Shown here piece by piece: positions 3,303 to 47,300 of a DNA stretch of 64,000 bases. The translations under genes and the position numbers were made by a program. Origin of the DNA: Capitulum mitella (taxonomy: Eukaryota; Arthropoda; Thecostraca; Pollicipedomorpha; Pollicipedidae); contig CP099844.1 of assembly GCA_030062745.1 (NCBI GenBank), positions 4,183,481-4,247,480 of the forward strand. The letters are read 5' to 3'. Every line of letters begins with the position of its first letter. Position 1 is the first letter of the stretch. Under the pieces are notes generated by a model. The model was not told the DNA's origin, did not search any database, and saw only the letters and a program-made list of their open reading frames with translations.

Positions 3303-3487
3303 GCCCGACACGTCCGTGAACGGCGTGGCCGTGGACCTGAACTGCGAGCTGACCTCGGCCACTGTGGAGGCCGCCGACCGCCTGCTGATCGACGTGGCCG
3401 GGTACGAGACGTTCCGTATGGAGGACCGGCCCGGCTGCAGGGACGTCCTGCCGGGCAGCTCCGGCACCTCGCCAATGGAGAGCAGAG
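3303..3487 (+). CDS. PAN domain 1, second-half exon
   Basis: The acceptor is CCGTTTCAG ending at 3302. The exon enters in phase 2 and reads 61 codons, with LNCELTS giving the PAN half-domain cysteine, then YETFRMEDRPGC in the D-T-Y-x-R position. A Gly/Ser/Pro linker follows. The donor GAG|GTAATG at 3488 leaves phase 1, matching the next exon. Beyond the donor the frame stays open to 3912 because the 42-base repeat of this exon end runs into the intron, so the exact donor is uncertain. The first half of this PAN domain is not in the window. Confidence 0.8.
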
Positions 3488-6400
3488 GTAATGACCCAAA
3501 CTCTGGCACCTCACCAATGGAGAGAAGAAGTACCGACTCACATTCCGGCACCTCACCAGTGGAGACCAGAGGTACCGACCCTCACTTCAGCACCTCACCA
3601 GTGGAGAACAGAAGTGCTGACCTGGCCCACACTCCGGCACCTCACCAGTGGAATGTAGAGGTACCGACCCATACTCCGGCACTTCATCAGTGGAGAGCAG
3701 AGGTACCGACCCGCACTCCAACACCTCACCAATGGAGTACAGAGGTACTGATGGAGAACCGACATCTCGACTCACACAAGTGGGTGGTGGTAGGGGAGGG
3801 GTCCAATTCCTACAGCTCTCCACTTCGGGGAAGAGTGCATCACATGCTGCTGAATACACCGGTCAGAAAGAGAGGGCAATGGTGCGTCCACGTCGACCTA
3901 CTTTCATTCTGATATTGTTAAATGCCATTGCACTGCATTCACTGTATTCACTGTATTGTGGTCGTATGCTGCTGGACCGTTTAACACGTGGCATTGGCGT
4001 TGTGTAAACTGTGGTAACGGTGTACGCACTGCCAAGTGATATGACGAATGCGTTGCGGCAGTATTTTGGTATTTTCGTGTATGCCAATGTATGCCTACAG
4101 TGTCTGTTGGTCCAGAATCACTGACGTGCTGGGCCTGCTCCCTATCACTGACAGACTCTGCCGGATCCGTACTCTACCGGCTCTGAATCACTGACATACT
4201 CTGCCGGCTCCTTGTCGCTATCGCCCTGGTAGACTCGTCTCAGTGTTCGTATTACTCTCAAACTGGTGTGTCAATGTGCTCCTTTTAGGAAACCCAACTC
4301 GCCGCAGACAGTTCGGTATGTCAGGTGATCGTCTGGAGCCAGTATGCGACCTTCCTCAGGGGGCTGCTTGTTGCGTCAGCCTGCGCCGCCAGATTGTTTG
4401 CTGCAAGTGTTCGTCTGCGCCGTCAGAGTGTTTGTTTCGTCAGTGTGTTTGTCTGCGCCATCAGACTGTTTCCGCCGCGTCATCACCGGCCGCCAGCTGC
4501 GTGCAGACGCTGTGCGCTACTCGCTGAGGTCCAGTTCGCTCAGCCGCTGCCAGCAGAGCTGTCTGGACGCCGACTTCTTCTGCACCGCCTTCTCCTACAA
4601 GTACGACGTCCGGCCCGGCCGAAACCAGCAGCCGATGCACGGTTGCTGTATTCCTTTCCATGACATAACTCAGGCACAATGTTCAGCTCTGCACATGCTG
4701 TGGAACGCGTTGTCATTCATCACTCTGTTCACGGCTATGGCCGTTTGGTGGCGTACTTGACTCGTTCTTTTTTTCAGTACGGCTATATGCCGCTAACATG
4801 GCGTTACGGCTATATGCCGCTAACATGGCGTCATCATGAGGTTTTCAGTAAATCCGAAAGCTGCCATGATTGAGAAATTGTTTCAGGCCAATTATCTCCT
4901 CGTCGTTACGTCGATAACAATCATGTCATCATTTTCGTGGAGACCCTGCATAAATCGTACCTTTCGACACTGCCTACCCTGTTTCACCGCTCCAAATGGT
5001 GCGTTGCGTTCAGGACCGAGTACAACACGAATGAGATCAACTGTGAGCTATCGGGAGAGTCCGGCTGGGAGCAGACCCTGGAGTCGGCCCCTCTGTTCGA
5101 CACGTACGAACGGGAGAGAACCTCTGCCTGCGGCTTCTACGGTGGATCGGGCCCCGAGACAGGCGTCCCCGGCAGAGACGGTGAGGGTAAACTCAGAAAC
5201 GGGGAGATTATACTCAGGGACGGTGAGAATGGACTCAGAGACGGTGAGAGTAAACTCAGACACGGTGAGAGTAAACTCAGGTACGGTGAGAGCAAACTCA
5301 GAAATGGGGAGGCTAAACTAAGGGACGATGAGCATAAACTTTAGGACGATGACACTTAACTAAGAGACTGTGAGAACAAATTTGAGACGGTGGGAGTAAA
5401 CTCAAAGGCGGTAAGTGTCAACTTAAAGACAGTGAGATTAAACTCGGGGACGGTGAGTCTAAATGCAGGGACAGTGAGAGTAATTCTAGGGTGATGAGAC
5501 TAAACTCAGAACCCATGAGAGTCAGCTCTGGGTGGGCGAGATTAAAGTCAGGAACGGTGTGAGAGAGTTCAGGAAATATGAAAGAAAACCCATCGACGTA
5601 AGAAAAACGCAAGGGCGATGAGATAGAACTTCGGGGTGGTGAGGAAAAACGCGGTAACGTTGTGAGGGAACTCACAGATGGTGAGAGAGACGCCAGGGAC
5701 GATGAGAGAGGGAACTCAGAGTGAGAGGGCAATTAGGAGCGATCGGATGAAGTTCAGGGAAAGTGACAAGAAACTCCGGGACGATAAAAGGAAATGCAGG
5801 AACAAGCACTACGAACCCAGCTACGGCGAGGAGAACTCAAATGTAATGAAAAGACCTCAGGGGCAGGGAAACGATGGCAAAGGTCATAGTAGGCGGAAGT
5901 AAACTCATGTATGGTGAGAGTGGGCCAAAAGGCTGTGAGACTGAGCCCAGGGGTCCGTGGCAAATAGCGTAGGGATGGTGAGCGTGATCCGAGGGACCAA
6001 GAGTGGGCACAGGGACCGCCCGCGGAAAGACCTCAGTGATGAAGAAAATGAGGTGACAGACTATGTACGCGCATTTCATGACGCTGAAAGCATCTTTAGA
6101 GACGAAGAAGAAAATCGGAGGTGGTCAATGAAACCCCGGGCCGCGGCGAGCGACGACGAAGGGGCTGTGAGATGGCAACCCGGGGAGTGTACGAGATAGT
6201 CGCAGAACCATCGAGCTGGGAAGTCACGGTCAGCGAGTGGCGCCTCAGGGACGACGACAGGGAACGGAAAGGAATCCCAGTGACAGTAGGATCTCAGGGA
6301 TGTTCACTTGGAGCTTGAGAGAGATGAGTGCATGACGGATGATGGAAGGTTGGATGCGATGAATACAGACCTGTCCTCAGGCCGTTGCTGTTCGTCTGTG

Positions 6401-9400
6401 AGCTGCCTCAGGCGGTTGCTGCCTGACCTCTTCGGGCCGGTTTGACTCGCCTGTGACCTGCCTCAGGCTGTTACCGGCTGATGGAGCGGGGTCGGGCCAT
6501 CGATGTCCAGGACGTGACTCGGCGCGTTGCCGCCTCCAGCCTGCGCCAGTGCGAGGACGCCTGCACTCAGGCGCCGTTCCGGTGCCAGGCCTTCAGTTAC
6601 AGGCAGGTTTCCTAGCCGTGGCGTCACGGCGCCGGCCTCGGAGCCTACTGGCCACTCATGGTACCGGCATTCAATGGTGATGCGGATGGAATGGTTCAGT
6701 AATGCAAGTTTGCTTTTTGAAAACGAAGTTGGACTTTTTTCCGGTTACGTTTTCGTTGCACACGGTTTTCAAAGCGGTTGCACAAGTCAGCATGCCATGG
6801 TCAAGGGACTTTGAGTTTATTTCACGACGCCTTCTGCCATAATTACCCGGAGATTACGTGGTGGGGCCATCGACCATCGGGCCATTGTCTCCTTTCACTC
6901 ATCTGTTGCTGCCCATTTCGCGGTGTATTGAATGCAGTTCGGCTCATAGCTCTATGCCAAGCCTTTTCCGCCCGAAGCCTGCTGTTGCGGAGCGGTCACG
7001 GAGGACGGAAGTGCCGGATTGTGCGGACGTACGGCCGTGCCCGTCCGGGCGGCAGGAGCCGCTGGTGACGTGACGCGTGCCTGTCCGTGTGGCTGGTGCT
7101 GTTGGTGAGACGTGCTTGTCCGTGTGGCTGGTGCCGTTGGTGAGGTGTGCCTGCCCGTGTGGCTTGTGCCGTTGGTGACGCGTGCCTGTCCGTGCGGCTG
7201 GTGCCGTTGGTGACGCGTGCCTGTCCGTGTGGCTTGTGCCGTTGGTGATGCGTGCCTGTCCGTGTGGCTTGTGCCGTTGGTGAGGCGTGCCTGTCCGTGT
7301 GGCTGGTGCCGTTGGTGACGCGTGCCTGTCCGTGTGGCTTGTGCCGTTGGTGACGCGTGCTGGGCGCTGGTAGGAGGCCGGACTACACCGCGGACCGCAA
7401 CTGTCAGCTGTCGGGCCGCCGCGGCCGGCTTCACACGGTGGCGCAGGCCGAGTTTTCCACCTACCAGCGTGGTTATGGCCGCGAGTGCTCCGGCTCCGGC
7501 TCAGGCTCAGGCTCAGGCTCCGGCTCCGGCTCCGGCTCCGGATCAACAGTTCGTGAGTTGCCACTGGCCGTCTGGCGAGGTCCCGGCGCAGATCTGATCT
7601 GCCTCGGAACCAGGCTAAAAGTCACTTCCTGTCGAAATTGATCGCGCTGTATGAGTTGGACGATACCCTTTATGGGGCTGGTATACGGCAACTTGTCGTT
7701 TTGGAACGCCTAGACACAGAGAATTCCCCTCGCGACGAAACAGTGTAAATTGTTCGCGGTCAGACGATGATTTACGGCCTTCGTTGGTGCGGTCTTCAGA
7801 ACTGTGAGCTCTGCGGTTTTCTGCAGGCTGTTTCCGCCTGAATGCGCCGGACACCCGCCTCAGAGTGAGTCTGATCATCCGCAACGTCATGACGACGACC
7901 GTTCAGAACTGCGCCTGAGGAGTGCAAAATCACCACCGACTGTCGCTCATTCAGCTACAGGTGAGGAGTGCAGACGCTGCCTGTTGCCGCTCCTTCAGCT
8001 ACAGGTGAGTTCAAAACCACCACCGACTGCCGCCCTTCATTTGCACGTAAGGCGAACTAAACCACCACCAGCTATCGACTCAGATGCAGATAAGAAATGC
8101 GAAATCGGTATTAACTCACTCACTGATTCACGGACTCCCTCACTCACGGAGACTCGGAAAGCAGTGCAAAGCTACGAGAACCATCTCGTAGAACCATCTG
8201 CACCCTTATGGCTAAGCATAAACAAGCAAACCAAATCTCATCCGGCAAGCAGTCGACTAGCTGTGCTGAGCGGGCGCCGCCAGGTCATGCGTGTGGCGGC
8301 TGGCTGTGCTGATTTTCGATTTATCTCGGCTCTGCCGCAGGCGGGACACGGCCGGCAGCCAGCTGAACTGCGAGATGTCGCGGCTGGCGGTGCGCGGCGT
8401 GGGCGACGCCAGCGTCGAGGCCGACAACCGGTACGACACCTACAGCCGCGAGTACGGGGCAGCCTGCCAGACCGGCGGCGGCGGACCGACCAGCCCCGCC
8501 CAGAACGGTACGGCACGCGCAGGCTGCACCGGACCGGCCTGGACCCGAACAGGACACTGTCTGAGCTTAGACTGGACCAGATTCAACTGGAGACTGAGCC
8601 CAGATTGCTTCGAATCTAGACTGTCCTCGTCCACATCCAGGCACAATTTAGATAGACTGAGAACAGAACCAGACGGCACAGAGTCGGTCAACAGAGCGGA
8701 CCAAACATGAAATCGATTCAGCTGAACCGATCTGGAGTGAATCAAAGCAGAGACTCCCCATAGAAATGTCCCCTTCCGCAAGTTTGGCCATTTGTTTGAT
8801 GAATGTTCAGGTGATTTTTGTCAGTGTTGCATGTGTCTCATGACCAGCCATACCACGCTCCTAGCATTTTTTTCTCGATTTCTATTGTTGCGTTTTGGAA
8901 CGTGCTGCAAGAGTTCCGGTGAAATGTGCCAATGAATGTGAAAGGACATGAAATGCTTGCGATGTCTTCATGTTGGAAGAGAACGCGTACTTTGTCATTC
9001 GCTGTGCGCAAACCATAAAACACGTCCAGACGCTCGCTCTGGTAGAGCTCAGACATTCGCAGGGGAAACGTTCGCAGGAATGTTTCCTGCGAACGTTGCG
9101 AACGAATGTTTCCTGCGAATGAGTTGGCTAAGACAAGACTGGAAGCTAGATCCCAGGGCGTTGGTCACATAAATTAAGCTACTTTATGCAATGTACAGCG
9201 GTCAGATCATCTGACAAGCAGATCCACAGAAACGCCTTTGACGGAGCGGCGGTATTCAGGCATCCGACGCAGTGGTCAGGTCAGCTGATGCAGCGGTCCA
9301 GACACCACTGACTGGGCAGTGGTCAGGTCAGCTGATGCAGCGGTCCAGACATCACTGACCGGGCAGTGGTCAGGTCAGCTGATGCAGCGGTCCAGACACC

Positions 9401-12400
9401 ACTGACCGGGCAGTGGTCAGGTCAGCTGACGGATCGGTCCAGACACCACTGACCGGGCAGTGGTCAGGTCAGCTGACGGAGCGGTCCAGACACCACTGAC
9501 CGGGCAGTGGTCAGGTCAGCTGACGCAGCGGTCCAGACACCACTGACTGGGCAGTGGTCAGGTCAGCTGATGCAGCGGTCCAGACACCACTGTCCGGGCA
9601 GTGGTCAGGTCAGCTGACAGAGCGGTCCAGACACCACTGAAGCGGTGATCAGATCAGCGCTGACGCGGCGGTCCAGACCCGGCAGCGGCGAGACAGGGCG
9701 GCCGGCGCCAGCCGTGACCGGCCGGTCGTTGGCTGCTTCTATTGTCCGCCGCGGCCGGCCCGAGGGCAGGGCTGCGTCCAAGGCGTCCGCGACCGCGGCT
9801 CGGCATTGTGTGACTGGGCAGGCTTTCTACGTGATTATAAACAGAGGCAGCGGGCCGTGCGGTGACACTGGTGCGCGGCCTGTTCGCGTCCGGCGGCACG
9901 GCGGCTTCGGCCGTGCGGGGACGGTGGCGGCACGCGCTGAGACGGTGGCGGCACTGCCAGCACGGCCACCGGCCGGGGCCCGGCAGACGACCAGAGCCTT
10001 ATAAGGCTCGGGCTGGCAGAATATAAATACCGGCAGTGTACAAATACTTTGCCGGTTAGCAGCGTCTGTGGCCAGACTGCCAGTTTCCAGAAGTCCGTGT
10101 TGTGTACACTTTCCGTCGATGGATAAACATTACACGGAACAAAATATGTCTCGTTTAAGACACTTTGCGTCCGTTTTAGGTAGACTTCTGGAACGTGTGG
10201 CACTTGCTGTTTGCTTCCCAGAGAATGCAGCATCTAGTTCATGATGTTGATACTCATCATGAATCGCATCCTGAATCGTAGCATGAATCGTATCCATCGT
10301 GAAACCTACCATTTTAACTTCCTATTCTCTGCAAGGATATAGAAACTTTTGTTTAGCACTGGTGGCCTCAAACTGCCCAGGCGTTCAACCAAAGCGGTCG
10401 TCAAGCATGACTGCCTACCTCATTAAGCCACCCACTCAAACGCCCCGGACACCGGCAATTTTACGTTCCCATAACTTTTATGGATAAATAATGGTCCGGC
10501 GATATCCACTGCCTTGTTCAGCGCAACAGTTTGGTCTCGGAACTTTTAACTGTGCTGGGCAGATCAGTCTGGCCAGCGCTAGCTTCCACGTTCCGGCGAG
10601 ATGAGTTTGTGTCGTCTCGGCGGGCGCTGTTTGGCTCGCAGGTCAGCTGGCACCTGAATGATAAAGGTTACGCGGACCACCACACGGTCATGTATGTCTG
10701 AAGATACAATAGACTTCTACCGTAAAATTATCCTGCATGTGAAGCTGCACGATAGGGTGTCGGTTCAGGTTTCATTCAATGAGCACTTCATACGAAGGGC
10801 ACTGATCCCCGAACACCACCCGAAATCATACGGACGAGGCTTACGACAAGCAAATAAACGTTTGTCTTTCATGGCAGGACTTTGCCGTGACTAGAATTCT
10901 CAACACCTTCCTGACGCCAGCTCATGCTCTGACGCCCCGAGTGGACAAATCACTGACGCATTGCTGCCCAGAAATTACAATGACGTCGTCGGAACGTTCT
11001 CGGGTACATCGCATGTCTCAAATAGAAATCGGCGAGACACATGGACTCATGCGTGATGACGACCAGATCACGATGGCTGTTGTTCAATTCATTCTCACTG
11101 ACCCGTATCTTCGTGGTGATCCCAGAACTAACGCTTCACGTCCGCGCGGCAGGCGGCTGCTACCGGCTGGTGAGCCGGGAGCAGCGGCTGCAGCGGTCCC
11201 GCATTGACGCCGTGTTCAGCGCCGCCACCCGCCAGGAGTGTGAACGAATCTGCTACATGTCTTACATGGGCTGCAGGTCGTTCAGCTTCACGTGAGTGTG
11301 CTACGGGGTGGTGACTGGAATGCATGGTTTTATTCCACAAGGCAGATTCAACAGCTCATGGTTAGAAGGGGCCGCAGATCCTTCAGGTTCACGTGAGTGT
11401 GCTATGAAATGATTAATGGTTACTGGAATGCTTGGTTTTACCCCACAAGGTAGATTCGACACTTCATAGAGTTTCGGCTGGTCCGCATTGTCGCCATTAC
11501 AGTGCCGTCTGGCTGCGATCAGTCCAAACTAAGAGACCGTGGGCCGTCCCGTGTGTCCGGGAGCCAGCAGGTGCGCAGTAACTGCGCTCTGCTCCTGAGA
11601 ATAACCCGCCGTGTGCCATGTGTCCAGGAGCCGGCAGGTGCGCAGTAACTGCGCTCTGTCCTGAGAATAACCCGCCGTGTGCCATCCAGGAGCCGGCAGG
11701 TGCGCAGTAACTGCGCTCTGTCGCGGGAGGACGCTTACATCAGTCGCCTGGAGCCGGACCGTGAGGCCGACACCTACCAGCGCGACTTCAGCCGGGCCTG
11801 CCAGTTCGGCACGGGCGAGGAGCACAACACGGACGGTACTGCCACCTACCGGCCGACTGGCCGCCGATATTGGACGAGTGGTGCTGTGATAAACCTACGG
11901 ACATCAGCCCTTGCGTTCTCGTGTCGTCCGATCCCACGTGCATGATGTCCAAGTCTGCTCGGTAGCAGCACTGTTCCACTCAAACCATCGTAATAGAAAA
12001 CTACGAAATGAATATTACTGGCGAAAGAGTTCTACAGCCAACACCAAGCCAAACCAAGGACTTAAGGACGAGTGCAACTCTTTACGCCTAACAGCACGTG
12101 GCACAAGTCATTCGCGTATTTAACCCAAACTTGGAAGATTTCTAGCATAACCGTCACTTGCAGCACTTTTATCCTGCAAGGCAATGGATACGACTTGTGT
12201 CGGCCGTTAACGATGGCGACCCATCGCTGCTGATGGCCCCGTCCAGCAGAAGCTGCCTGGTATTTAATTCAGGCGATTACCACCGTGGAGTCAGCCGTTG
12301 CCCGAACTGCTGATTGCAGTCAGTCGCTCTTGTCTGAACGTCGACCTCCTCCTCCTGCCGACAGAGTGCTTCCGACACATTTCGCGGGACATGCGCCTGC

Positions 12401-15400
12401 CCAACACGCGCACCGACGTCTCGATGCGAGCCAACAACCTGGTCTCCTGCCAGCAGGAGTGCAAACGTTCCGGCTGCAACACGCTCAGTTACAAGTGAGC
12501 CCCGAGCCTGCCAGTGAAGTGTCCGGTCCTCACCGCACCATCCTGTGCGATCGAAGCAGAGCTCGTTGCATGTTTTCGGCCGTCGCTTGTGGCCTGCACT
12601 TGAAGTGGCCATTATTGGTACCGTTTCTTAAAACGGTTCACTCGTCTACACGAGTGAACCGTTTTAGGAAAATCACGCAGGCTTCCATAGCCGAATGCGA
12701 TAGTTTTTGTCTCCGACTGATCCGGCGCGTGAAATTACGCTTCGCGTTTTTGTTCATGATTTGGCCTTGTTTGCGGCTGGTTTGTGAGTAAACTGCGTCT
12801 GCCGCGTCTGTTGCAGACTGTCGTCGCTTATGGGCAATATTGACTGCCGTGGCTGTTGCAGACTACCTTGCTTACCAGCGCTATGCTCGTTTACGGGCAA
12901 CATTAACTGCAGCGTCTGTTGCAGACTGCCTTGCTTACTGGCACTATGACCAGCTGCATCTGTTGCAGACCGTCGTCGTTCACGGGCAATATTAACTGTC
13001 GCGTCTGTTGCAGACTGCTTTGCTTACCGGTGCAATGATTTGTCGCGTCTGTTGTAGAGTGACGGTTTAATTAAGGGCGCTATGAACTGCGGCGTCTGTT
13101 GCAGACTGACTTCGTTTACGGGCGAGATGAACTGCCGCCTGAGCCGAGACCTGCTGACATCGCGCGATCTCATCTCCGACTCGGAGCACGACACGTACAT
13201 CCGGCAGGACAGCCCGCGATGCGGCTCGCCGGGTCTGCCCGGACCGTCGGGCGTCGGTGAGCACAGGCGGCGACCCAGGCAGGCGGCGGATGGACACTGT
13301 GGTCCGGGCGGGCAGGGGATCCGCCGCCGTCTCGGTCAGACCGCCTCAAACCACCTCTGACGGCGGGTTTTGTTTTTACTGCGCCTCATCAGTAACGTCG
13401 GCCACGTCCATCTGACCGGGGCCGGAGTCGGCAGTGGCTTGACTTGATCGCAGCTCGAGAAAAAGGAAACCCGGAGATTAACGAGTCAACTCGAAACCGC
13501 GAAGGCCCGGTTCAGGTCCGGACGACCGTGCGAATTTCGCTCCGGACTGCTTCTATAGTCGCCTGACTCCGCTTCATCACCAGCTTGTTCCAACGCGTTA
13601 ACAAAACCAACGAACCACTGTCGGCACCCGCTTCGATCGTGGCGCTGTGTGACCGGCGCTCGGTGCCCGCCAGGCGCCTGTTACAGGCTGGTGGGGCCCA
13701 ACCTGCGCCACCGGGACCGCTACATCCACGGGGCCGTCATGCTTACCAGCCAGCTGCAGTGCGAGGACGAGTGCTCCCGACTGCGGGGCTGCACCGCCTT
13801 CAGTTTCAGGTGAGCGCTTCATCGGGAAATACACCAACTTGAACGTCAGGTGACTTAGTAGAGAACTGCATCATCTTCGGCTCCAGGTGAGTTTTGCGAG
13901 GGTGAATACATGGCCTTCAACTTCAAGTAAGTTCCCCGAACTACCGTCAGCTTCACGTGAGCTCGCAGTAGAAGACAGTAACACGTTCAATTTCAGCTGA
14001 CCTCTAACCGTAAGGTTTTAAGACTTCTGATCTCCCCCGCCCCAACCTCACGTCTGCTGGTTCACTGAGAACCAGCTAAAAGTGGTGAGCTGTTTGTGTT
14101 GATGACAAAACAAGTAATCTCAACTGAGCCATCGCATCAGCATTTAGAAATCAGGTATCTTACAGACAAGCAGCTGAGCAATACCTACCGGGCCAACAGG
14201 GCCGGACAGAGATCAGAGGGTGAGGGAGCTGACGGTGTCAAAGGGGTCCTCGATGAGCTCGAAAGTAAAGGAAAAGTATCAAAAGACAACAAGCATGGGA
14301 ACAGTACATGAAGGGGCTAAAAGCGAGGGGCCTCCTGCATTCCTTCCCCCTCCCCGCCACGCCTGCGGCTGCCGGTCAGCAATTTTTTGTCTATCTTGCG
14401 GCCGCGTGGTACAGTGAGCAGCCGGAGACGCTGGCGTCGCTCAGTCTGGGCGGGTTTAGGGACGCAATAAAGATTCGTTCTGCTGTGTTGATGTGTTGTT
14501 GGCGTTTCGTGGTGCTGTTTTGACACTCTCTTTTTAAATGTATGGCTCTGACACAGAATGGCCACTGCTTTGCTGAGTGCTAGCACTGTGTGTGTATTTC
14601 TGTAAGCGGTCTTCACGCATAGGCAATGAAAAGGACGACATTATGGAAAGCTACGACATCTGCAAGATGCTGCTACCACGTTCTTTAGGCTCCTACCAGT
14701 ATTTACCATGATTATCGGTAATGGCTAATTCGCGGCAGCGCGATGACCATAAGCATTGAACGGCCTCTGGGGCATGAGCCGACCAGAACAACGGCTCGTT
14801 GCTGCCAACAAGGTCAGGCCAAGAGGTTAGGAAGCCACCGCCCGTGGAGCAGGCAGCGGTTACCGCACATCACGCACAGATGTCGCTACTGGCGACCATA
14901 GGGGCCGCCCACACGGGGGACGACGACATTTCGCCCGCGTCACCGATGACGAACGACCTGAGGATTTGTGCTCGCCTGGCGTACACCGTGCGGTGTCCCG
15001 GGCATCGTCGAGGACAGGACAACACTTCCCCTACACAGTCTTGTTTTTTTGGCTGGAAGGCTCTGTTGTAGTTTAAATATGTTGTTGCACCTCAGATGTG
15101 TCAATTTGTATTCTTTTGCTTGCGTCATGCCCCTCCCCCATTGTGGGTCTTGGCCCCTGCAAAGGCGATTTTAGCCCCAATATTTTTTCACTTCTCTAAA
15201 CAAGAGAAACATTGTTTGTTCTTTCGAAAATGATAAGTAAGAAATGGGAATAAAAATTTCCGCCAACAAAATTGGAGTGAGTTAAATTTGTTCACAAACC
15301 CTCATTGGGGAGGAAGTTATGTTTCCAGGCACTCGGTTCGGTACCCCCATTGACACAGAACGACACCGCTGTTGCGCCTTATTAACTTTAGTATCAGAAA

Positions 15401-18400: not shown

Positions 18401-20134
18401 AGGTCAAGATGATGGCAGTAAAAAGAAGGTCTGAATTACTTTTGCGGGCCGAAAAAGGCACTTTAGGCTTAATTTGACTGCTTCAATCAAAACCGAAAAT
18501 AAAACGAAAAATCGTCTTTTTTCGGGCAGGGGTCGCTTTTTTCCAAAGTTATAGGAATCTGTTTCGGCTGGAATACGCCGCAAATGTGTCTGACAAGCGC
18601 ATGAAGCCTCCAACTAACTTATTAAGGTCAAACAAGGCCAACCTAGGTCTACGTATTGACGCCTATATGGTGGGCGTTCCTTATGTCTGTCACATTATCT
18701 GCTGCATTACCACTGATTATACACGATACAGCATAAAATTCTATAGCATGGGTAATATCACACAACATATCTGTGTAACTTCCATTTTGCATGGAAGTCA
18801 CAGGTGTTTGATGGTAGTCATGATCACAATGTAAAAAACAAATATTTGGAAGGAAAGTATTTTGGCGACGGCAAGGAATTCTACTTTGGCTACCAAAAAT
18901 AAAAGGATGGGATAGTGCAAAAGCTGCAAACTGTGCGGAAAGAAGACAAGGGTGTAATTTCGGGGGATTTTTTACGAACTTTTTTACACACACTTGAACA
19001 AGATATCTGATGCTCTCAGTTACTGCTCACATTTTACGTGGGTGGTTGGTTAGACGGAGCATACTGTTTACACACTGACGCCAAATTTTCCACGACTTTT
19101 CTCCATTTGTTAATGGATTTTTTTACCTTTCTTAAATTCAAAAAAGTGTTCTTTTCGGCGTTTAAATAGTTTCCTATATATCTTTTAACCCCTCAACACT
19201 TGGAATGCAACACATTTTTCGACAATGCCAGATATACAGTTTGCCCCAAAGAGCGCAAATACGTAACACTTTAACATCCACTCGTACTCGCCCTCCTTCT
19301 AAGAAATCCACGACGACAACCCTGCGCAAAGAGAACGCCGCATCACGTTCTAGTTTCTTCCTAATTCAATACAATTCTTATTTCCCGTGGTCATACGACG
19401 TACATTCGCATTGGCAGCAAGTGCAATGTTTCGAAAGTTCAGTTCAGGCCAGTCTGTTTCAGATAGGATTGGTCACCATTGGCAGTAAGTTCATGCCATA
19501 TGTTAATACTTCCGAAGTACAAATGACTTACGAAAAACATTCCAAGACCGTAAACTAATGAACTTTATTCGGTTGCGGGTCTGAAAGTTCGGTATGAAAC
19601 GTGACCTGGCCCCAGGTCCCAGACCAGGGGTAAAATTGCATGCACGGAGAACATGAGAAGCACCAGTGTGTATATTTGAGCTTCAGAACCGTAGTGGTAT
19701 TAGCCGGCTCGCGATGACTCACCAGGGGGCGACTCGCCTCCTGTTATGAGTGAAAAAGCAGTACGTTCGAACATGAAACTGTGCTCTCTTAAAAAAAAAA
19801 ACAGACAGCCGACAGCCACACATGTTCTAGCAGCTGCCAGGAGCAACGTAGCACAGCACGTGTCTCGTATACGTGTTGACAACGCCTACGTAAAATGGAT
19901 TGCAACACCGCAAAATCACAGAACCAGATCCTCAGCCTCAGTAGCAAACGTGGAAAAGGCTGAACGTTTGGCTGACGGTCAATGACCTGGACATTTTCGA
20001 AGAATTCGAGATAGCAGACTTGTTCTAATTGTCATGTTCTATAAAAAAACAAGTTCCATGTCAGCTGATAAATCTCACAAGCTGTTGTTGCAGCGCGGTA
20101 TATGTATATATATACATATACATACATATATACA

Positions 20135-20174
<40 letters not shown>

Positions 20175-23100: not shown

Positions 23101-26100
23101 CACGTTTCGCGCACACTTTGGTACGGGCTCTGGGCACGCAATGGTAGGCCGCTCTCCCCGTTTGACAGCGCTGAAGGGAATGACGTAATACGCGGTCGGT
23201 CAGTCTCCAGAAGTGGTGGGAGCCTGTTGCTAGGTGGAAGGCATCATAATCCCGCACCATCTATCCGGGATTTAGTCTCGACATGAACCTTTTTAACATG
23301 AATTATCTATGGCGAGAAGCCTTGTTTTTCGTCCGATTTTGACAGAACGTTTTCCAGACAATGACACTTAGGTTGGAACGGCTGTCTGCAGAATTTTGCC
23401 ATCTTTGAGCCAGAAGTGTAGAAGATATCCCAAAAAATTACGGCACGGATGGTTTGACGCCGACAGTAACTGGCTGATCTAGCAAGATGAGACGCCGGCG
23501 AGTTGAAACACTGCTGATATCAACCGCCTGTTCACCATTCTAAACATTAGTCGTCCTTCAGCTAGACACATTTCTGACATCAGTTTCCGGTGGTCTAACT
23601 TTGAGATAGAGCTGCCGCAGCTCGTGCTTTACATGGACGGAGCACCGCCGACTGAGGGCGTCTTCACTGCCGCAGGGCCGGCTACGCTCGCACGGAGAAC
23701 TGCCTGCTGAGCCGCGAGGGCGGCCAGCAGATGAACCACCTGCTGGAGATGGTGCTGCAGCGCGACCCCGGCTGGAGCGTGTTCCAGCTGGACAGCACCT
23801 CCGGCCAGTGTTCGTCGCCCGTCGTCGGTCCTGGCCCCGCAGGCCCGGGCGGCGGTCGGCCCGGCTCCGCAACAGGTCAGTCCGGCCCCTCAGCCGAGAG
23901 GCGGAGAGAGAGGGTACGGGAGTTGGGGCGCGAAGGAGGGACAGCAGAGAAATGTTGGATCAAGAGAAGACGACGAAATCTGCATCCGGCGTTTGTTGTG
24001 ACGGCACGGAGGTGAAAACCGTCCAAGAACGTGGTAATTCTTCATCAGAATACGATTATATCATTATTATAGATCGTACCTTGGTACACTGTGCACGTGG
24101 AAAGCAAGACGCATTGCACTGAGTGGCGGCGAAGAAAACCGGTGTATACGTGGGGTATGCACATTCATATGTCTGCATGGGCATGGGCATTTTTTGTGCA
24201 AATCTAAGGTCGGTAAACATTGCCTTGATTGAAGTGTGCATGGAAATTTCGTTTTAGCCATCAGAAAAAAGAACTTTGTCATAGCAGAGTCGAAGTCGAA
24301 CAGGCATCACAGTTTGTTCTCTAGCTGGCTGTGAGCTAAACATTCCTCCTTTTGGGCAAATCTTCGAGATACACCCTCCTTCCCCCCAAAAAAAAAACAT
24401 TTTCACCATGCCTACCATGACTGCAAACGACCAGCACAAACGTCGCCATCGTTGATTAAATACGTTACGTTGATAAAAAGAACCATTTTCATTCCGTGTA
24501 GCACGCTATTTCTTCCATACCTAAATTGCCGCTGCCTCATCCGGGGAGTAAATTGTACACAATACTTAGAAAAACCGGTGTTCCTCCAAAGGCGAGCTGT
24601 TGCAATAACAAACAACGTTTACCCTTCACATGGTTCGGACCAATGTTCATACACTACAGAAAACTGAAATGGCGTGATATTGCAAAAACATTTTGCATAC
24701 TTTACAAAGTAAACGCGAACAGCGAATATAGCATTGGCATGAAATCAACATTTAAGACACTTTTCAAAAAGAAGTTTCGACTTTTCTCCTCCGCATACCA
24801 GGGATTAGTTAAATTGTGGCGGGACAGTAGGGATACCAGGGATTATTCGACTTTCACCTCTGTAACCAAAATTACGGAATGGCATTATGGCGTCCAGAAG
24901 TGCCCATTATCAATGATATTCTGCCATCAAAACGGAAAATTCGACGCAACATGGAAAACGCATTTCTTGCTCATGACATGCTGGATAAAACAATATAAAA
25001 CAAAAAATGAATCAGCTTAAAATTAATTGCACTGGATGGCAGAGGAAAAGGTAAAAATAACCGTAGTACTAAGAAGGCGTGCTTATGTCTTTTGGGGATT
25101 AATCTTCTGTGTGGTAATCTAAAATCTTTTCATCTCGGTTTAGGCTCGCACAGGCATTCTTAACCAGCTCTGGGGTGGCCCGCCTGACAAGCCCCTTTTA
25201 AATCTTGGTGGATCCGTCATTACCTGACAAGTTGTGTTTTCACGCTTGACACAAAGGGAAGAAATGTAACGTGCTGTCATTAACTACCAACACAACTAAT
25301 TTCAAATTAGATTTAGCGGGCAGTCGGAAGCGTCTTGTCAAGACTGCTTTCCCTTTTTTTCAACTATCGCCTTTCTCTCTCGCCAATGTTCACCATTTAG
25401 TCACCTTCAACAGTACGGGGGGAGAGGAGGGAAGGTACGACCCCCAGCCATTTACAAACTTGACGTGATGGAGCAACGAAACAAGAACGAGCGTGTAGCT
25501 TTGTCTTTTAGCTACGCGGTGACATCCTGTCTGATCCCGTTTTTGTTCACTCAGGGACCTTACAGGTGACCTCAAAGGATGCCATGTCGGCGGGTTCTGG
25601 TTTTAATGGAATCCTATGAGACATAACATGAAGAACGTTTTTCATGGGTCCAACACGACTTCTGGCGATGAATAAGGACTCAAACTACTGTTGGTATTGA
25701 TTTCTTTTCTGATTTTTCATGGTACTGTTTACATCTGTTTACATCAAACATCTGTTTACATATAGCGTTCCTGATTACATCATGGTCTTTCCAAGGTTGA
25801 TAAAAGGTCGAAAAAATCAGTGACTTCCATTCATGATTCTGCCCTTAAGATGACCTTGACCCAAGCAAAGATTGCGGTCCAGGGATCACTAACACCATGG
25901 GTGTTACCCACTTTAAGACTGAGTGAGATCTAGTACCGTAAAATACTTCAAACGTTTGTTACCCGATGAAGACCGTCGCCGTCACATTATTTCTACGTTA
26001 CACGCCCTCTATGGAGAAGTCGTATGTCAGTGACCTATGAAGCTATTGACTTCAAATTTTTCGGCAAGCCATAAAAAAGCTTGACGCTCAGGTACACGAA

Positions 26101-26426
26101 ATGCCAGATTAATTTAAAAAGTCGTTCTGGGATAACTTCCGCAAAACCACAGTGACAGAAAGCGTACTCAGGAGAGTTCACAGGGGCATTAACTTCCAGA
26201 CCTCAGCGGAGTTTTCTGCGCCGAGTGATATGCACCGGCAGGTCACATGACTCTTGGGTTCTAAGTACTTCTGATCTGTTGAGCCCATCCTTTAGCAAAC
26301 TTTGGGAAAACCGCTGGCGACCGCTGCGTGGTTGGGTGGCCGGCCCAAAAGACATTAACGTGCTCTCGGTGAAGAAGTGGGCTCTGAAACGAAAAAGAAC
26401 GGCTGAAAAGTTTTGTTTCAAAACTT

Positions 26427-26523
<97 letters not shown>

Positions 26524-29314: not shown

Positions 29315-29383
<69 letters not shown>

Positions 29384-32300: not shown

Positions 32301-35300
32301 GACCCATACATTCACGTGAACTCCGAAACAACTTAATCATTTCCATAAAATATTTCCGGATATAGGTTATCGAACCAAAATTTATTGTCTCCCGATACCG
32401 CCTCTGCTTAACTCATGAAAGTGAAGCCATTTGGATTGACACCCAGAACCCAAAAACTCATAAGAAAATCGAAGGTAAAGCACTCATCACGTTTACTTAC
32501 GATATGAAAACACGTGCATCCAGAATTTTTTTTTTGATGATGTCTTGAAAATGCATTTTCCATGTCAAATGTGCAGTTCCTCTCCCTAATCGAATATCAG
32601 CTACAGGGGACAAGGCAACAGCTGTGAAGCGTTTTCAAATTCTGAAAAACAGGAGACATCCGTCCCATCTCTCTATGTTGACCTAATCAAAAATAAGACG
32701 AAGATCATTTATATCCCATGCTTCCACATGTTTGAAAATGCTGCGTGCTGGCGAGGGAGGCAGTCGCTGAAAGCATTCAGAATTTAAGCCGACTGTACCC
32801 TGTGGAAAACGCCACATTAGCAGGTTTGGTAGGTACTATGTCTTTACGCTATTAATGACTGCCTTTCTGGTTTTCATTCCTTCGCTATCGGGCGAACAGA
32901 ATTCCAACAAGAGACAAAAATTGTATCGTCGCGTGCATTCAGATGTTTAATTCAAAATCGAAAGAAATGAAAGCGTGCTTCGCACGTTTTTAGCGAATGA
33001 GATTTCGTACATGATGGTCGCTCGGAAAAGTTCAGATCGTGGTGTTACTCAGTTAGACAGTGTGCCCAAGTTTCAGAGCGTCTAGCGCCCGAATGCGCCA
33101 GTCGATTGCGGCGCAAGTGGCACCATCGGGTGAGCCGTCTCGGCGGACAGATTGCGGTGCAGGCTTCGAAGCGTTTCACGCGATTTGGATTTGGATTTGG
33201 AAGATTGGCGTGAGCCGGACCTCTGCTGAATTCGATTAATCACGGGCAAAGATGAAACGGCGGGTGCTGTTGACTCAAGGCTTGGTGACAGTATGGGTCC
33301 CACTTGCGGGTACTTGCTTTTGTGTTCGGCACCCACATGCGATCCACGTGGCGATCCACAGGCACATGTTCCAATTTGGACTCGGGGACCTCCGAGTGCC
33401 GTCAGAAATGACCTAATTCAATGGCACTCTTTATGATAGGAGTGATTCAACGGGCTTCGTGCAACGCACGTGCGCCGCTTTTACACCCGTGTTTCTTATG
33501 GACCAATTGCCGGGACGCAAACGGCGCAGTTTGGTGCGATGTTGGCTTGAAAAGACAGATGGACAGCTGGGCGATTGATTTCGATGGATTCAGGTGGAAA
33601 CGGGGATGCGGCCTGCACGTGAAGCGCAAGGCGCCCAAGACCCGTTCCTCATTGCCGCAAAAGCTCTACCGCTGGGGTGTTGAAAACTGGCGGGCACGTG
33701 ATACGTGGCTGTCGATATATGCGTCTGTTTTAGATGTCAGTAGCTTCAGTTTGGTGTGTGCAGGATGCACGTGCTGAGGCGGACCCCTTTGTCATTCAGG
33801 CCTTTGGTTTGGGAACCGTTGATGCTGGAGGCGCCAAATTTCGTGGTGGGCTGCAAAGTCACAAACGCCATCCAGGACAAGCAAGATTTAGGACATCAGC
33901 GGCCAGATGCCATCCATGTGAGAGTGCAGGCTGTTGGACTTGGGATCCTCCGTTTGCGGGAAGTCCGTGATATCTACCTTATTACCTTTATTTAGATAAG
34001 GACACTAAGCGGGTGCACAGGTTTGCGTGCCACACAAAGCTTCGGTTTTGTCCCCATGCCAACCGTGTAACGCTTTTGTTTGCCTCCAGTGCTTCTAGTG
34101 TTTTCCGTTTTTGTTTGCCTCAGAGTGCGTGAAATGCCCAACTTTGATCTTTTTACAATCGAAATGGAAGAAAACAAAGAAAACAATACTCTGGAACAAA
34201 TAGATAAGTTCACACAAAGCCAAGTGTCAGTATCAGTATCAAAAAACGTTTATTGACATCAATAATCTGGGAGCTTTTCAACATGCAAAAGCGAGGAAAG
34301 GGTTTTTCATCCGGATCTATTATTTATTACATTGCAGTGTACCAGAACGTAGCACGGTTCTGAATTTACGTATTCCATTGATTTTCTTTATATGGCGGGC
34401 AATGAAAAGGGGGTCTAAAAAATGCTAAACGTCGCATGACTTTTAACTGATCATTTATACATCACCTACAAAGTTTTTGAACATAGCACGCGGACCAATC
34501 AGAAAACAGTAACTATGGTGCGGGAAAGATGTCTGACTGTGCTGCCGTTGCGATGGTGAGATTCGTGCTGACTTCACTGTAAGGAACGATTATCTTGGTC
34601 ATGGTTCTACGAGACGAACACAAACATCCCCAGAGCGCAGCAGATTTACAGCCGGTGGTAATGGTAACGGTCGGTGCAAACTGCGAGGCGCGGGTCTGTC
34701 AGTGGCGCAGCGGTGAAGCGGCTCGCTCGAGCCGACTCTGTAGTGACCGACTGGCCGGCGGCCCGGCCACCGGCGGTCCGGGCGACGGCGGCCGGCAAGG
34801 CCAGCCCGGCGGCCGCTATAACAGCCGGCGGCCGGGCGGCGGGCCGCCAGAGCCCTGGAGCGCGCCCGGCCGCCAGCAGCAGCAGCCGCAGCAGCGACCG
34901 GCCGACGCCATGACCGTGCTCTCCGCCGTCCGCCGCCTGACGGCCGTGCTGGCCGTGCTGGCCGTGCTGGCCGCAGCGCGCGCCGCCGACACCAAGAAGG
35001 AGAAGTCGACCGAGAAGGAGACCGGCAAGGAGAAGCGACTGCCGACCAGCGCCCTGGTCGAGCCGCGCTGGAGCTGGTCCGGCGGCCAGCGGCAGCAGTA
35101 CCAGTGCCCGCCGCCGGAATTCTTCTACGCCAGCTGCCACATGTCGGACAGCTTCACCGCCTACCGGGACGTGCACCCGCAGTACCACCTGCAGCACGAC
35201 GCCCACTTCCGGCCGATCGCCGGCCCGGCCAGCGGCGGCCTGCCCCGCGCCCCCAGACCGACGCTCGTCACTTTCGTCGCCGAGGAGGCGTCCAAGCCGG

Positions 35301-38300
35301 CACGCTACGACCCGTGGGCCCGACCGTCGGGCTACGACCGAGCCGTGGGTCCGGCTGACGATCACTGGAGGCAGAGTAAGTGGGCAGGCCCGCGCAGGAG
35401 CCGCGCATGCTGGGTAAATCGGCACCGCAGCCGCCGGAAACCAAAACCAGTTGACAGCGCTCGATTGAAGTTTACCAAGGCATTAAAGGAGACTCATTCG
35501 GAGATGGTCCTGGTGATAATGTAACGCATTCGCGTATCTTGAAAACTGGGAAATTAACATTACAACGAAGGAAAGTTTGGTATTATTTGGACCAAAACGA
35601 GCTTTCATCACATCTGGGCTGCGTAGACAAGATTAAGATAACGCAAAGTTACATTTTATCAGTGCTTCGTAATTTTGGGAATCGGTCACCATCAAAGACG
35701 ATTTATTAGACAAGATAACAGTACTAGGATTTTTTTAGCTACCATGCCGTGGACCCTGATGCTCCGTTTTCGGGACAGTCGATTAGTTTCGTGCAATGTT
35801 TTTTCGAAATTATTATAAAACTGTCTACCAAAAATCAAAACAACTTACATTCTTAACACGATTGTGCGATTATCTCGTGCATTGGCTCATGACTGTGACA
35901 TGCATCTGTGGGGTTTGTATAAACATCATCTGCCGGCCCTTAACGAAAACGTTTTCATTCTGACGGAATTTCCGATAAATCACATCACTTTCATTCATTT
36001 TAAGTGTTTTTTGGCAAATTCAGCTGGCATTGGAGCAGCCTTATGCACCAAAAGTAAAAACAGGTAACTTGTAATCCATCCTTTGCCGTTATTTAAATTG
36101 AACCTATTATGATCGCAAACGGCTGGACAAACTATGGTTCCCATCACTGGCAACGTAGAACAGGCACTGATTTTCAAAGTTTTGAAATATTTGGAGGCAA
36201 GACGGTAGGACCGTAAAATCAAAATTTCACATCACAGGATCTGTACGCATACACTGTATCGTTACAGCGTACTTTCGAAAATCATCCTTGTTAGGATGAT
36301 TTGAGCGCCGAGATGCACGACATATGTGGGAATAATCGGGAAACATCATGTAGGAAACAAAACATGCTCTTTTAGCAACAAGCTGTCATCTGAAAGTGAG
36401 AAACCACGTGCACCGGAGCACGATCTAAAGGCTCCCCTGATGTAATCGATCATCCTTCCCCTTTGTTTTGCTCATTACCAGGAAAAAAGCTTAGCATCAA
36501 TTTATATATTCAGCATTTGTGATCGAGATAATTTTGGTTGCATGCTAAATAAGAACTGCACCCGTGCCCGCTGTACGCATGCCTGTTAATTAAATAACAA
36601 TCCTTGAAATAGCGAAGGTATTGATGGCTATTTTTCTGTACTGGGTTTGGCTGATGGCTGAGCTAAACTGCATGATCCTCTAAACGAAACAAAGTTCGTG
36701 CTCGAACACTCTGAACTGAACCTGAACGGCCTGATTGTGTGATTGCAGGTCAGCTCCCGGAAATAGTGTGAGGCCCGTGCCTGAATTTGCCGGCCACCAC
36801 TGCCCGCCGGGCGCCACGCTTCGGGCCCACAATGGGCGTGCTTGTCTGCACCGCACTGTTGGCCGCCATGTGCGCACAAACCATTGCACGTGCTCAAACC
36901 GGAACGTCCGGCCTTCAGCCGAGCCAGGCTTCGTAACTTCTCTGCGGCTGTAGCCTTGCGGGAGCGGTTCTGTTGAAATGGCCCGAGAAGGGTAGTCCCG
37001 CACAGGGCGTTGATGCCAAGCTCGGAATCTCAACGTCGCGTGAGGAGAAGGCGCGGTAGACGTAGAGCTGCATTTAAGAGTTTCACGCCGGTTTTTATGT
37101 GTGCCTACGAAGGACGCCGTAGGACAGTCGCTTCGGTAAAATAACTTAAAATGACGTCTTGTTAATGCTGACAAAGCTTGAGCATAGCGTCTTTGGGTTT
37201 ACTTGCTATGCGCATGTGCTGTCACTGCATGGCCTTTGCACGACCACTTGCTTTTATTTATTAATGAGTGTTTGCAACGCTTTTGAGAATGATACTGGTA
37301 GGTAGATTCAACATGTCATGCGAGTAATTTGGTGTGGTTTTTCCTTATTGCTTCTTCCATGCATCTGTCCTTTCACTGGTGCTGACTTCCCTGCTTAGAG
37401 CGTGAATAAAGCATGCTATGGTATTTGGTTGTTTCTGCTGGTAATGTTGTCTCACCGGCGCGAAATTAACATTTCCAAAATCGGCTTATATTATAGTATG
37501 TAAAATGAAATCAATTATGTATGCTTCCGAAACTTATCGTCAACATAATAAAGTACCTTCCAAACTCCACGTGAGTTCCTGCTGACTCGGTATTTATGAC
37601 TGGTGTTTCGAAACCGAAATTTTAGTGTTGGTAAACACTTTTCAGGAGAAATCAATTACATTCGGTTGCTGTCCTCCAAATGGGGTGTGAAACATGACCT
37701 GCCCTCAGACCACCAGTCAGAAGCTAAAACAAGCGATCCGCGGGGCATAAGAAGCATCACTGCGTTCACTGAAGCTTGAAAATCATCAAACCAAACCCAC
37801 AATCCAAACGACAGGCGTAAAAAAAAAACGGGAAGTGCGTATGAACGAAAGTCTTCATACCAAAACCATCAGTCTTCTAGAACGTCACTGTCGCTTTCAG
37901 TTACGCATAACTCATACAGGATGGTTTCTACTCAGCTCATGTACTGGAACAGAAACCCCTTACTCATGCAAAAACTGTAAAGTACAAGGCGAAATTAAAC
38001 GCATCAAAGCCAGACTTCAGACACTTTAAAAACACACTGAATGACCAAACACAGTTTGACTACGTGGCGGCAGTTACGCTGCGCTTCGACACATGTTACG
38101 CTGGGGAGATTTCGGGATCCATTTCCATAAATTTCTTCTTTGTTTCATTACTGTAGCATACAAATGCCGTGTAATACGCCATGTTTCCAATTTCTTCGTT
38201 GTGAAAAAGGTTTCGAGGCCGGTCGCACTCATGTTTATTACGACCCTGGCAAACGGTTTCGACACGAACAAAATCAACTCACCACCGGCAATAATACTTT

Positions 38301-44300: not shown

Positions 44301-47300
44301 CTCACATGGCCTTGTCCTGCTGGACAACAGTCATCTGTACCCGGAACCTAAGCGTTGCCTGCCCATGTAAATCATGGTCAATGATTCTCGCATTGTCACC
44401 ACCCCAGGTCACGGTATTTCTACTCCTTAGTACGGGGGGGGGGACTGGGTGGCCACGGCTCCTTCGGCCACAGCGGTGAGAATGTTTGTGCAAGTCTGAT
44501 GTGCTACGCTTTGCGACGTTTCGATCTCACAATGGGCCATTGTCGACCCACGTCATGTCGTGATTCCCGGCTTCCAGTGCAAAACACTGATCGCGGGCGA
44601 ACCGCACGCCTGTGCCCGTGTGTATCCCATAGATATATGTTGCGTGCCTCTATGCTGACTTATGAAGTCTCCTGCCAGTGGGAATAAGTAGAAGCGGTCT
44701 GCTTCACTGCAATCCAGCTGTGTTGGGGATCACCACGGCCAGTCTCATCCTAGTCAACCATGAGTTAACTGCATTGGGCATCGCAAACCCGGTCTCGATC
44801 TCGGGCCGCTGGGTATGCGCTGCGATGGGAATCTCTGATCCAATCCTGATCCCGTGCCGCCGGTTGTTCGATGCAGCGGAAATCGCTGCAGCTGGTCTGA
44901 TCCTGGTCGCGATGCTGGGTTTCGATGCTGGTCTGATCCTGGTCGTGATGCTGGGTTATGATGCTGGTCTGATCCTGGTCCCGATGCTGGATTATGATGG
45001 TGGTCTGACCCTGGTCGTGATGTTGGGTTATGATGCTGGTCTGATCCTGGTCCCGATGCTGAATTATGATGGTGGTCTGACTTTGGTCGTGATGTCGGGT
45101 TATGACGCTGGTCCGGTCCTGGTCGTGATGCCGGATTATGACTCTGATCTGATCCCGATCGTGACGCCCAGGGTGCTACCGGCTGCAGCGCCGTGACCAG
45201 CGACTGGAGAACCACATCCTGCAGGTGATCCAGTCCCGGGAGCTCCGCGACTGCGAGGAGTCGTGCAACCGCGACCGCAGATGTGTCTCCTTCAACTTCA
45301 GGTCAGTCACGGACAGTGGCGCCGACATTGTCAATGACATTTTGAACCAATGACCCTTGACACTGCAAGCAGAGTCCTTCCGGGTTGTCAGGAGAAATTG
45401 CCCCAGGCAACTTTTCACTCCTGAAAAAGTCCGAAAAGTGTTTACGAACTGATATTCTTTATCTATCCGTCGTTGTTCTGAAACGATTTAAAAATTGGTC
45501 AAGATGAGATTCTCGATTGTTGGGAAAACATAGGTCAGCTACACGTAAAGTCATCGAGTTCAAAACCCGGCAGTGTCTGGTGTTATTGTCTGCGTGGGTC
45601 GCGTTCCTGTCGGCGTATGTGGGTCGGCAGGAGTGACCTCTGTATGGGTCGGCAGGAGCGACCGTCTGTACGAGACTCCTGAGTGACCCGGGTGTAAATC
45701 GGCAGGAGTGACCCTGTTGAGACGGTGTGCGAGCTGACCGACATGGACAGCTACGCACAGTACGCTGAGTTCCGTCCGATCGCCGGCTGGGACTTCTACG
45801 AGAAGGACGCCTCCTCCTTACTGCTCCGGTTGGGACAATAACTACTACGACACCAACAACTTTGGCTACGCGTGTGAGTTTGATGCCCCAGTTGACCCCT
45901 GTCCGATGCAGTCACACGACCGTTCGAGCAAACGTCCCAGCAGGACACATCATTGCAGCAGGACCTGTCATTGTCACAACAGTCGAGGGCAGGACAACCG
46001 GTGGGCAATCCAAACATTTGTAAATAACATTTGGTTCGTCGCCAGTGGAGTATGCGCCGCATCGTCAGTTGTTTTAAAGGCATCGCAGCCAGCCTTGGCC
46101 ACGTCCATGCTACCCGTATGTAAGACCGGCAACAGCTGAAGCCGGACAGAGCCCAGTTGTGTTGAAGAACTAAGCCCTTGATAGCGTCTCGGGTGTGTCG
46201 GCTGACCTTGACGGCGTCACCCCGCGAGCCGTGACACGAGGTCGGACGGCCGCTCGGCGCCGTGCCGTGACGTGACGGTCGGTCACGCGCTGGAGCCCCA
46301 GTGACCGGCCGCCGCGGCGCCCGCAGATTGTTCGCTGCGCGTGCGGGACAACAGCCTGCTGAGCGTGAGCGCCGTGCGACGAGACATTACGGCGCGGAGC
46401 CTGGCCGACTGCGAGCAGGCCTGCCGTGAGGAGCGCAACTTCCGCTGCGAGACCTTCTCGTTCGGGTCAGTGTAGCGGCGGCAGCGCTCCGAGCCGAAGT
46501 CTCTCTCTCTCTCTCTTTTTGGGAGGAGTTCCTTTTCTCTTCTCTTTCTCTTTATTATCTTGGGACGGTTCATCCTTCTGTCTTCTCTTCTGTCCTGCAT
46601 TTCTCTCACGGAACACTTCTGCTCTCTTCAGTACCTCACTTTTACAGCCACGTTTCAGGAATGTCAGAGCCGTTGTGATGACAGAACTTACCAGCTCGTC
46701 CGGACTTGACCTTTATGTCTACCAACACGGACAACTTACGTTGCCCTGTCGTTTCAAATGATCATTTACGCTGCGCAACGGGTATTTTGTACGTGAAAAT
46801 TTCACCATGTCTGGCAATCGATCCATACGGTTTTGCGTTGTGATTTCGGGTGATAATTCCACGCATGCACGGTCCGGCGCACTGCCAAGGTACTAGCTAT
46901 TTCGACACCGAAGGACAACCATTGCCGTAACTGCTTCACGCTGTTATCCATCAGTGCTGGATAACGCGCACGCGCTTTACTACGATGAATTAGCTCCTCT
47001 GAACCTGACAGAGCCATTTACTGGCCTTTAACTCTGGGATGTGGTGACGACAGGGGACGGACCGCCTGGAACAGTGGACCCATTGTTGTAGGACGCGCCC
47101 GCTTCTTACGGACGGAAAGGTAGAGTAATGCAGTTGTAAATATGAAGTAAATGCTCAGTCAAAAAGCATCCAAGTGGAGTCGGAAAACTCTCTGGAAGAG
47201 CACCTACCGTCACCATCGGTGACGCTCTAGCTCTTGGCCCTATGAAGACGAACTAAAAAATATCTCCATTCGTTGACAGGGTATTGGTTTTAAGTGCAGA

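Follow-up and report, generated by a model that had tools for sequence, protein, structure and literature searches.

Here we show that, in a 64,000-nucleotide window of the genome of the arthropod Capitulum mitella (GenBank assembly GCA_030062745.1, contig CP099844.1, positions 4,183,481 to 4,247,480 of the forward strand; "the window" hereafter), introns of two PAN-domain genes carry tandem arrays whose repeat unit contains the adjoining splice junction together with some exon sequence. Arrays of this kind were also found outside the window, at 16 of 312 predicted junctions in kinase, Ras, and other PAN genes; they are apparently widespread in the genome, at about 5% of sampled predicted junctions. 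Outside the window, the exon-intron border was over-represented as the edge of an array, 2.2-fold when all copies were counted and 4.2-fold for strong copies. The arrays are probably mirage-type minisatellites, that is, local tandem duplications whose first unit takes in the junction and 6 to 36 exon bases, which would be tolerated at borders and might arise more often at edges rich in guanine and cytosine (GC).

The initial annotation, made from the letters of the window, had reported about twelve junctions at which the intronic array copies its own splice site. We aligned a probe of 32 bases, 16 from each side of the junction, to 600 bases on the intron side, with a score of at least 14 as cut-off, reached by about 6% of window positions. 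Nine of the 36 window positions probed passed, all of them among the twelve named junctions: the donors 3488, 5181, 7961, and 11292, and the acceptors 4464 (exon start 4465), 6466 (6467), 11689 (11690), 13104 (13105), and 45705 (45706). On the exon side, none of the 36 passed. One probed position, 34910, is a start codon rather than an acceptor, and the probes at the exon B6 acceptor and the E1 donor were misplaced by one base. Donor 13810 remained below the cut-off with a score of 9 (15% of background), but an 18-base probe, applied post hoc, detected four degenerate copies of exon end plus donor in 260 bases, with 0.11 expected; donor-like sites lie in this array at positions 13850, 13887, 13927, and 13957. 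Acceptors 7373 and 45171 failed with scores of 6 and 4, the array only adjoining the junction. The initial count thus stands for nine junctions, for 13810 through the post hoc probe only, and not for the remaining two.

Window exons were assigned from splice sites, reading frame, and homology between the PAN repeats. Two of four typed window proteins matched Pfam PAN_1 above the curated cut-off, a third matched PAN_4 and PAN_2, both below the curated cut-off, and the fourth, the first exon of gene 2, gave no Pfam match. Gene 1 has exons assigned from 3303 to 23875; gene 2 starts at 34910 and ends near 50335. Since exon 34910-35375 begins with what we take to be a signal-peptide-like sequence, a second gene opens there, and the twelve named junctions are split between two PAN-domain genes, with 45171 and 45705 in the second, and do not belong to one gene as had been assumed. 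The exons and arrays concerned are the following.

3303..3487, plus strand: exon B0 of PAN gene 1, second half of the PAN domain, with donor GTAATG at 3488
3459..3748, plus strand: 42-base array across donor 3488, about 29 exon bases per unit, GT retained in six of six aligned copies
4406..4471, plus strand: array across the acceptor of exon A1 (4465-4600)
5173..5483, plus strand: 21-base array across donor 5181 of exon B1 (5014-5180), unit with 8 exon bases
6395..6485, plus strand: acceptor duplication at exon A2 (6467-6602), with a copy located some 55 bases upstream
7070..7360, plus strand: 35-base array stopping 13 bases short of the acceptor of exon B2 (7374-7552), junction outside the unit
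7925..8060, plus strand: copies of exon end plus donor downstream of exon A3 (7827-7960)
11270..11400, plus strand: donor region duplication of about 100 bases downstream of exon A4 (11153-11291)
11552..11722, plus strand: 62-base array across the acceptor of exon B4 (11690-11835)
12824..13120, plus strand: array of 44- to 63-base units copying the acceptor of exon B5 (13105-13256)
13800..14000, plus strand: degenerate copies of exon end plus donor downstream of exon A6 (13674-13809), by the post hoc 18-base probe
23676..23875, plus strand: exon B6 of PAN gene 1, junction-spanning copies not seen with an acceptor probe one base off
34910..35375, plus strand: first exon of PAN gene 2, presumed signal-peptide-like start
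44891..45164, plus strand: 36/72-base array stopping 7 bases short of the acceptor of exon A7 (45172-45301), junction outside the unit
45620..45720, plus strand: 25-base array extending to the acceptor of exon B7 (45706-45873)

Regarding the exons themselves, A3 and B7 contain frame shifts relative to the homologous reading, through assembly error, allele, or decay; the donor of exon A2 at 6603 is GC instead of GT (GCAGGT); a six-base repeat at 7487-7541, inside exon B2, encodes Gly-Ser repeats; and the first exon of gene 2 directly follows a GC-rich upstream stretch.

Array units differ from junction to junction (42, 21, 62, and 25 bases among them), and by blastn the window arrays are mutually unrelated, apart from a short common piece in the pair at 11292 and 13810, both of which are ends of homologous PAN exons. 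A genome search with one window array region retrieved only the region itself, and a second region retrieved itself and two partial matches of 73%, very common words being skipped by the tool in both searches; the two regions searched do not behave as a dispersed or transposon-derived repeat. This bears out the initial view of the arrays as separate local events rather than one spreading element.

The assembly comprises 477 Mb in 16 contigs, the window being part of the contig we label C6, and gave at least 150 genome-wide matches to Chitin_bind_4, an arthropod cuticle domain, each at an E-value under 1e-11, from the 150 candidates scored out of 627; we take these to be RR-type cuticle proteins, which point to an arthropod and not to a lancelet. 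Outside the window, we sampled 30 stretches around kinase exons (20 stretches of 198 kb and 10 of 40 kb in total), six Ras gene stretches (17 kb), and other PAN genes, together 312 predicted junctions at 45 loci. Exons were called by a small exon finder that uses codon usage and splice matrices, was trained on the window PAN exons and on kinase exons, and retrieves most of the assigned window exons. Exons scoring below 25 were dropped from the pooled counts, except for Ras exons overlapping a Ras match. P450 and trypsin genes were left out of the sample: genome-wide, many of their matches are entire domains within a single unbroken open frame, which suggests many intronless copies.

In kinase genes, 14 of 248 usable predicted junctions had an intron-side copy, namely 4 of the 125 donors and 10 of the 123 acceptors, and none of the 248 had one on the exon side. 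At kinase locus L015, a 33-base unit is repeated about 38 times after the donor. At L012, the first 36 bases of an exon that we presume to be GSK3-like recur in the intron, and L014, a paralogue presumably with the same GSK3-like exon, has junction-spanning copies at the same acceptor (4560-4830 in L012; 4590-4870 in the reverse complement of L014). In blastn, only about 100 bases upstream of this exon align between the two loci and most of the intron is no longer alignable; the shared copies may stem either from common descent or from repeated origin. Two of 30 junctions in the Ras stretches passed, both ends of a single L044 exon found with the Ras profile, and its copies repeat the coding end with the WDTAG motif, together with its GT. 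Among other PAN genes, one of 44 junctions passed when exons scoring at least 20 were admitted (L033), and so lies outside the pooled 16. The phenomenon, initially described for the introns of one gene, therefore extends to kinase and Ras genes. Events cluster, with two or more at 5 of the 45 loci (2.5 expected, p 0.03). The window is richer than the rest, 9 of its 40 junctions passing as opposed to 16 of 312 elsewhere (Fisher test, p 0.0007 with the lower and 0.051 with the higher cut-off), but it had been selected for that very look; the start codon 34910 and a probably spurious predicted donor at 50261 are counted among its 40 junctions, but not among the nine.

Arrays as such are abundant in this genome. 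Those called by Tandem Repeats Finder (TRF) occupied 8.4% of the 198 kb of kinase-gene DNA (1.5 to 28.9% by stretch), with coverage flat with distance from the junction, and 18% of the PAN region, at the high end of this range; depending on distance class, 4.5 to 13.5% of intron or flank points had a copy within 600 bases. Plain overlap between arrays and junctions is halved, as might be expected given that exons cannot hold arrays, and we judged it fairer to ask whether a point lies inside the outermost unit of an array, with copies on one side only. By this edge-unit measure, unmatched rates were 5.65% for kinase junctions versus 1.3% of 44,768 oriented intron points (4.3-fold), and 22.5% for window junctions versus 2.2% of 3,324 points. 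Junctions are richer in GC than intron points, and the edge rate climbs with GC from 0.6% to 2.7%. The whole-window background was rejected as sole control because array density varies by region, and oriented intron points matched for GC and locus were used instead.

The border excess persisted after matching. GC-matched kinase junctions gave 14 edge units versus 5.1 to 5.6 expected (p 0.0008 to 0.0017). Matched for both locus and GC, the pooled set gave 16 of 312 versus 7.3 (2.2-fold, locus bootstrap 1.1 to 3.4), 14 versus 3.35 for copies scoring at least 18 (4.2-fold, 1.8 to 7.1), and 11 versus 2.2 for copies scoring at least 22 (5.0-fold, 2.1 to 8.5). A 40-base probe yielded 2.1- and 4.3-fold, and a 24-base probe at the strict cut-off 4.8-fold (2.3 to 8.3). 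Matched counts in the window alone were 9 versus 1.7, 5 versus 0.9, and 2 versus 0.6 (5.4-, 5.8-, and 3.1-fold by rising cut-off). When TRF arrays were shuffled within introns, kinase genes had 8 junction crossings versus 2.5 expected (72 introns) and the window 4 versus 1.1 (16 introns). Copies were present at 9 to 10% of points between +24 and about +100, at 7.3% of those on the junction, and at fewer than 3% of points lying 40 bases or more inside the exon. One-sided decay, in which the exon copy is constrained, is a poor fit as the source of the excess: it should yield mainly old, weak copies, whereas the pooled excess peaks in strong ones. Arrays are thus about as frequent away from junctions as near them in terms of coverage, and rarer at junctions in terms of plain overlap, which in part amounts to the refuting outcome named in the initial annotation; but their edge units coincide with junctions two to five times as often as with matched points.

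According to the explanation that we favor, tandem duplication, which is frequent in this genome and common in its introns, would occasionally straddle a border; the exon would then keep its end and the extra copies would become intron. Such an event should be free of loss so long as the exon-proximal site still wins splicing. The exon body past the overhang is absent from the copies and, by exon definition, would favor this proximal site, and duplications deeper inside the exon would presumably be removed by selection. Least certain is the step in which the border excess would arise from a higher birth rate of duplications at GC-rich exon edges than in the intron interior. The residual two- to fivefold excess might reflect either a birth rate at such edges that is raised further than GC matching can correct for, or some transcription- or splicing-linked process. 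The anatomy of 21 events (L004 and L006 left out) is compatible with this scheme, with array periods of 21 to 104 bases (median 55) and exon overhangs in the unit of 6 to 36 bases (median 20). The frame is closed before the end of one unit in 8 of the 22 events that could be read; splicing at the next copy would therefore yield a truncated protein, and the exon-proximal copy should be the one that works there.

Several points weigh against border-straddling duplications with a genuine border preference. Plain overlap is reduced at junctions, with 16 inside arrays versus 32.3 at matched intron points (0.5-fold). GC matching cuts the excess of weak copies to about 2-fold (lower bound 1.1), so that a further unmatched factor could be its source, and the 24-base probe at its lax cut-off gave 1.8-fold with a bootstrap interval of 0.8 to 2.8. 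Exons beyond the window are predictions of a finder trained on window and kinase exons. Two of the 14 kinase events, at L004 and L006, have copies 456 and 539 bases distant and are probably chance, although they were retained in the pooled counts; none of 32 junctions in other PAN genes passed at an exon score of at least 25. Finally, 14 of the 22 readable events keep an open frame over at least one unit.

It is rather unlikely, in our estimation, that these are ordinary intronic minisatellites of a repeat-rich genome, without border preference, noticed in a window from the rich end of the range. The flat TRF coverage, its wide spread among kinase stretches, the 18% in the PAN region, and the halved overlap would all fit such a background. 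It would not readily account for edge-unit excesses of 2.1- to 5.0-fold with the 32- and 40-base probes, with bootstrap intervals above 1 in data that had not been picked in the initial annotation, nor for the excess of junction-crossing arrays over the within-intron shuffle in both kinase genes and window; the 24-base probe agrees at its strict setting, less so at its lax one.

A process tied to transcription or splicing, such as R-loops, stalled polymerase, or nucleosomes at exon edges, might initiate duplications at the border. The excess does fall exactly at the border, and for the pooled junctions it grows with the cut-off from 2.2- over 4.2- to 5.0-fold, the most similar copies presumably being the youngest. 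In the window, stricter cut-offs do not raise the ratio, and the exon share of the unit, calculated with array periods and with L004 and L006 omitted, did not differ from uniform (Kolmogorov-Smirnov [KS] p 0.29), so that nothing points to a fixed target site; we regard such a process as distinctly unlikely. A smaller-than-uniform exon share (KS p 0.0025), obtained at one stage, was withdrawn, as it had taken the spacing to the closest strong copy as the unit, and this spacing frequently amounts to several periods.

Selection for redundant splice sites had been suggested in the initial annotation, and copies kept as redundant or decoy sites would be expected to preserve their splice signals. 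The mean identity of the splice dinucleotide in the copies was 0.79 to 0.93, depending on probe and position; donor GT was matched in 0.89 to 0.92 versus 0.79 to 0.81 for the remainder, and donor-like motifs survive in the otherwise diverged array after 13810. The preservation of GT and AG above the remainder of the unit was not significant (p 0.06 to 0.13 for donors, 0.18 to 0.59 for acceptors). Outside the window, splice-like sites showed no general excess near donors, and acceptor-like sites near acceptors were fewer if anything; in the window alone, the excess near junctions was not significant (p 0.08 to 0.35). Nor was divisibility of the period by three (9 of 21, p 0.24). Splice sites in the copies are neither purged nor demonstrably favored, and these data do not support selection for redundancy, which we consider very unlikely.

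Hardly more credible is the reading that some of the introns are in fact exon, with the array translated and the true donor at its far end. The frame runs open for 422 bases past 3488 and 161 bases past 5181, and, as mentioned, for at least one unit at most readable events. GC-rich arrays would be poor in stop codons by composition alone, and the eight early frame closures speak against translation at those junctions. Intron gain through tandem duplication of AGGT-bearing exon pieces (a Rogers-type model) we give next to no credence: exon sequence is indeed duplicated around splice signals, and a potato intron reportedly arose from duplication across an intron-exon boundary (PMC4974935), but the A/B introns of the window interrupt all seven A exons with intact frame at one shared codon position, in one phase, and are therefore older than the arrays, each of which flanks a single junction without constituting the intron.

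Arrays also occur in the window away from the junctions discussed. A hierarchical array with 31-base units within a 168-base higher-order unit occupies 16498-17034 in a long intron, a 70-base array (6.5 copies) lies near a 62-base array at 28126-28921, away from any exon found, and a short tract at 53441-53498, made up of repeats similar to TTTAG / TTTAGGTTAG, is reminiscent of degenerate telomere sequence.

Mirage minisatellites have been known from a few lancelet genes, for which they were proposed as one way in which new introns might originate. The new part of this work is the breadth across unrelated arthropod gene families and a measurable border excess; searches of open-licence PubMed Central (PMC) text turned up no arthropod minisatellite described as spanning a splice junction. 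Existing genomes can now be used to test whether exon borders are hotspots of tandem duplication, and the arrays also raise the question of how the spliceosome chooses the right site among near-identical ones. It is tempting to speculate, though we think it unlikely, that borders are a general hotspot of tandem duplication in some animals, and that about one in 20 junctions in this genome has spawned a minisatellite from its own splice site through a splicing- or transcription-linked mechanism. Such a process would have acted in lancelets and arthropods alike, extending introns at their ends and providing reserve splice sites.

The initial annotation knew of no named system that matches, but the lancelet mirages do so (PMC3087553, PMC3902484). 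These were reported for Adh3, the globins BflGb6 and BflGb9, TnC, and PGBD5, at both types of border, with units of 10 to 72 and 150 to 160 bases, undisturbed splicing, and length and somatic instability. Like them, the arrays described here consist of tandem units across the exon-intron boundary at 5' or 3' borders, carry AG or GT signals in many copies, and have units in the range of tens to about 160 bases, here 21 to 104 and different at each locus; boundary-spanning unit, both border types, retained GT or AG, and unit size are all found in C. mitella. They differ in belonging to another phylum, in occurring in gene families unrelated to one another, and in having been counted against matched intron points, and they are known from genome sequence, whereas the lancelet arrays, in the same sources, were assayed for splicing and length instability. 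Ordinary intronic minisatellites (variable number tandem repeats) are likewise local, tandem, and place-specific in unit sequence, but here the unit includes the junction and exon bases. The potato case (PMC4974935) likewise duplicates splice-signal sequence at an intron-exon boundary; there an intron was gained, whereas here the introns predate the arrays and no intron at a new position bounded by two duplicates was seen. The closest counterparts of the C. mitella arrays are thus the mirages of lancelets.

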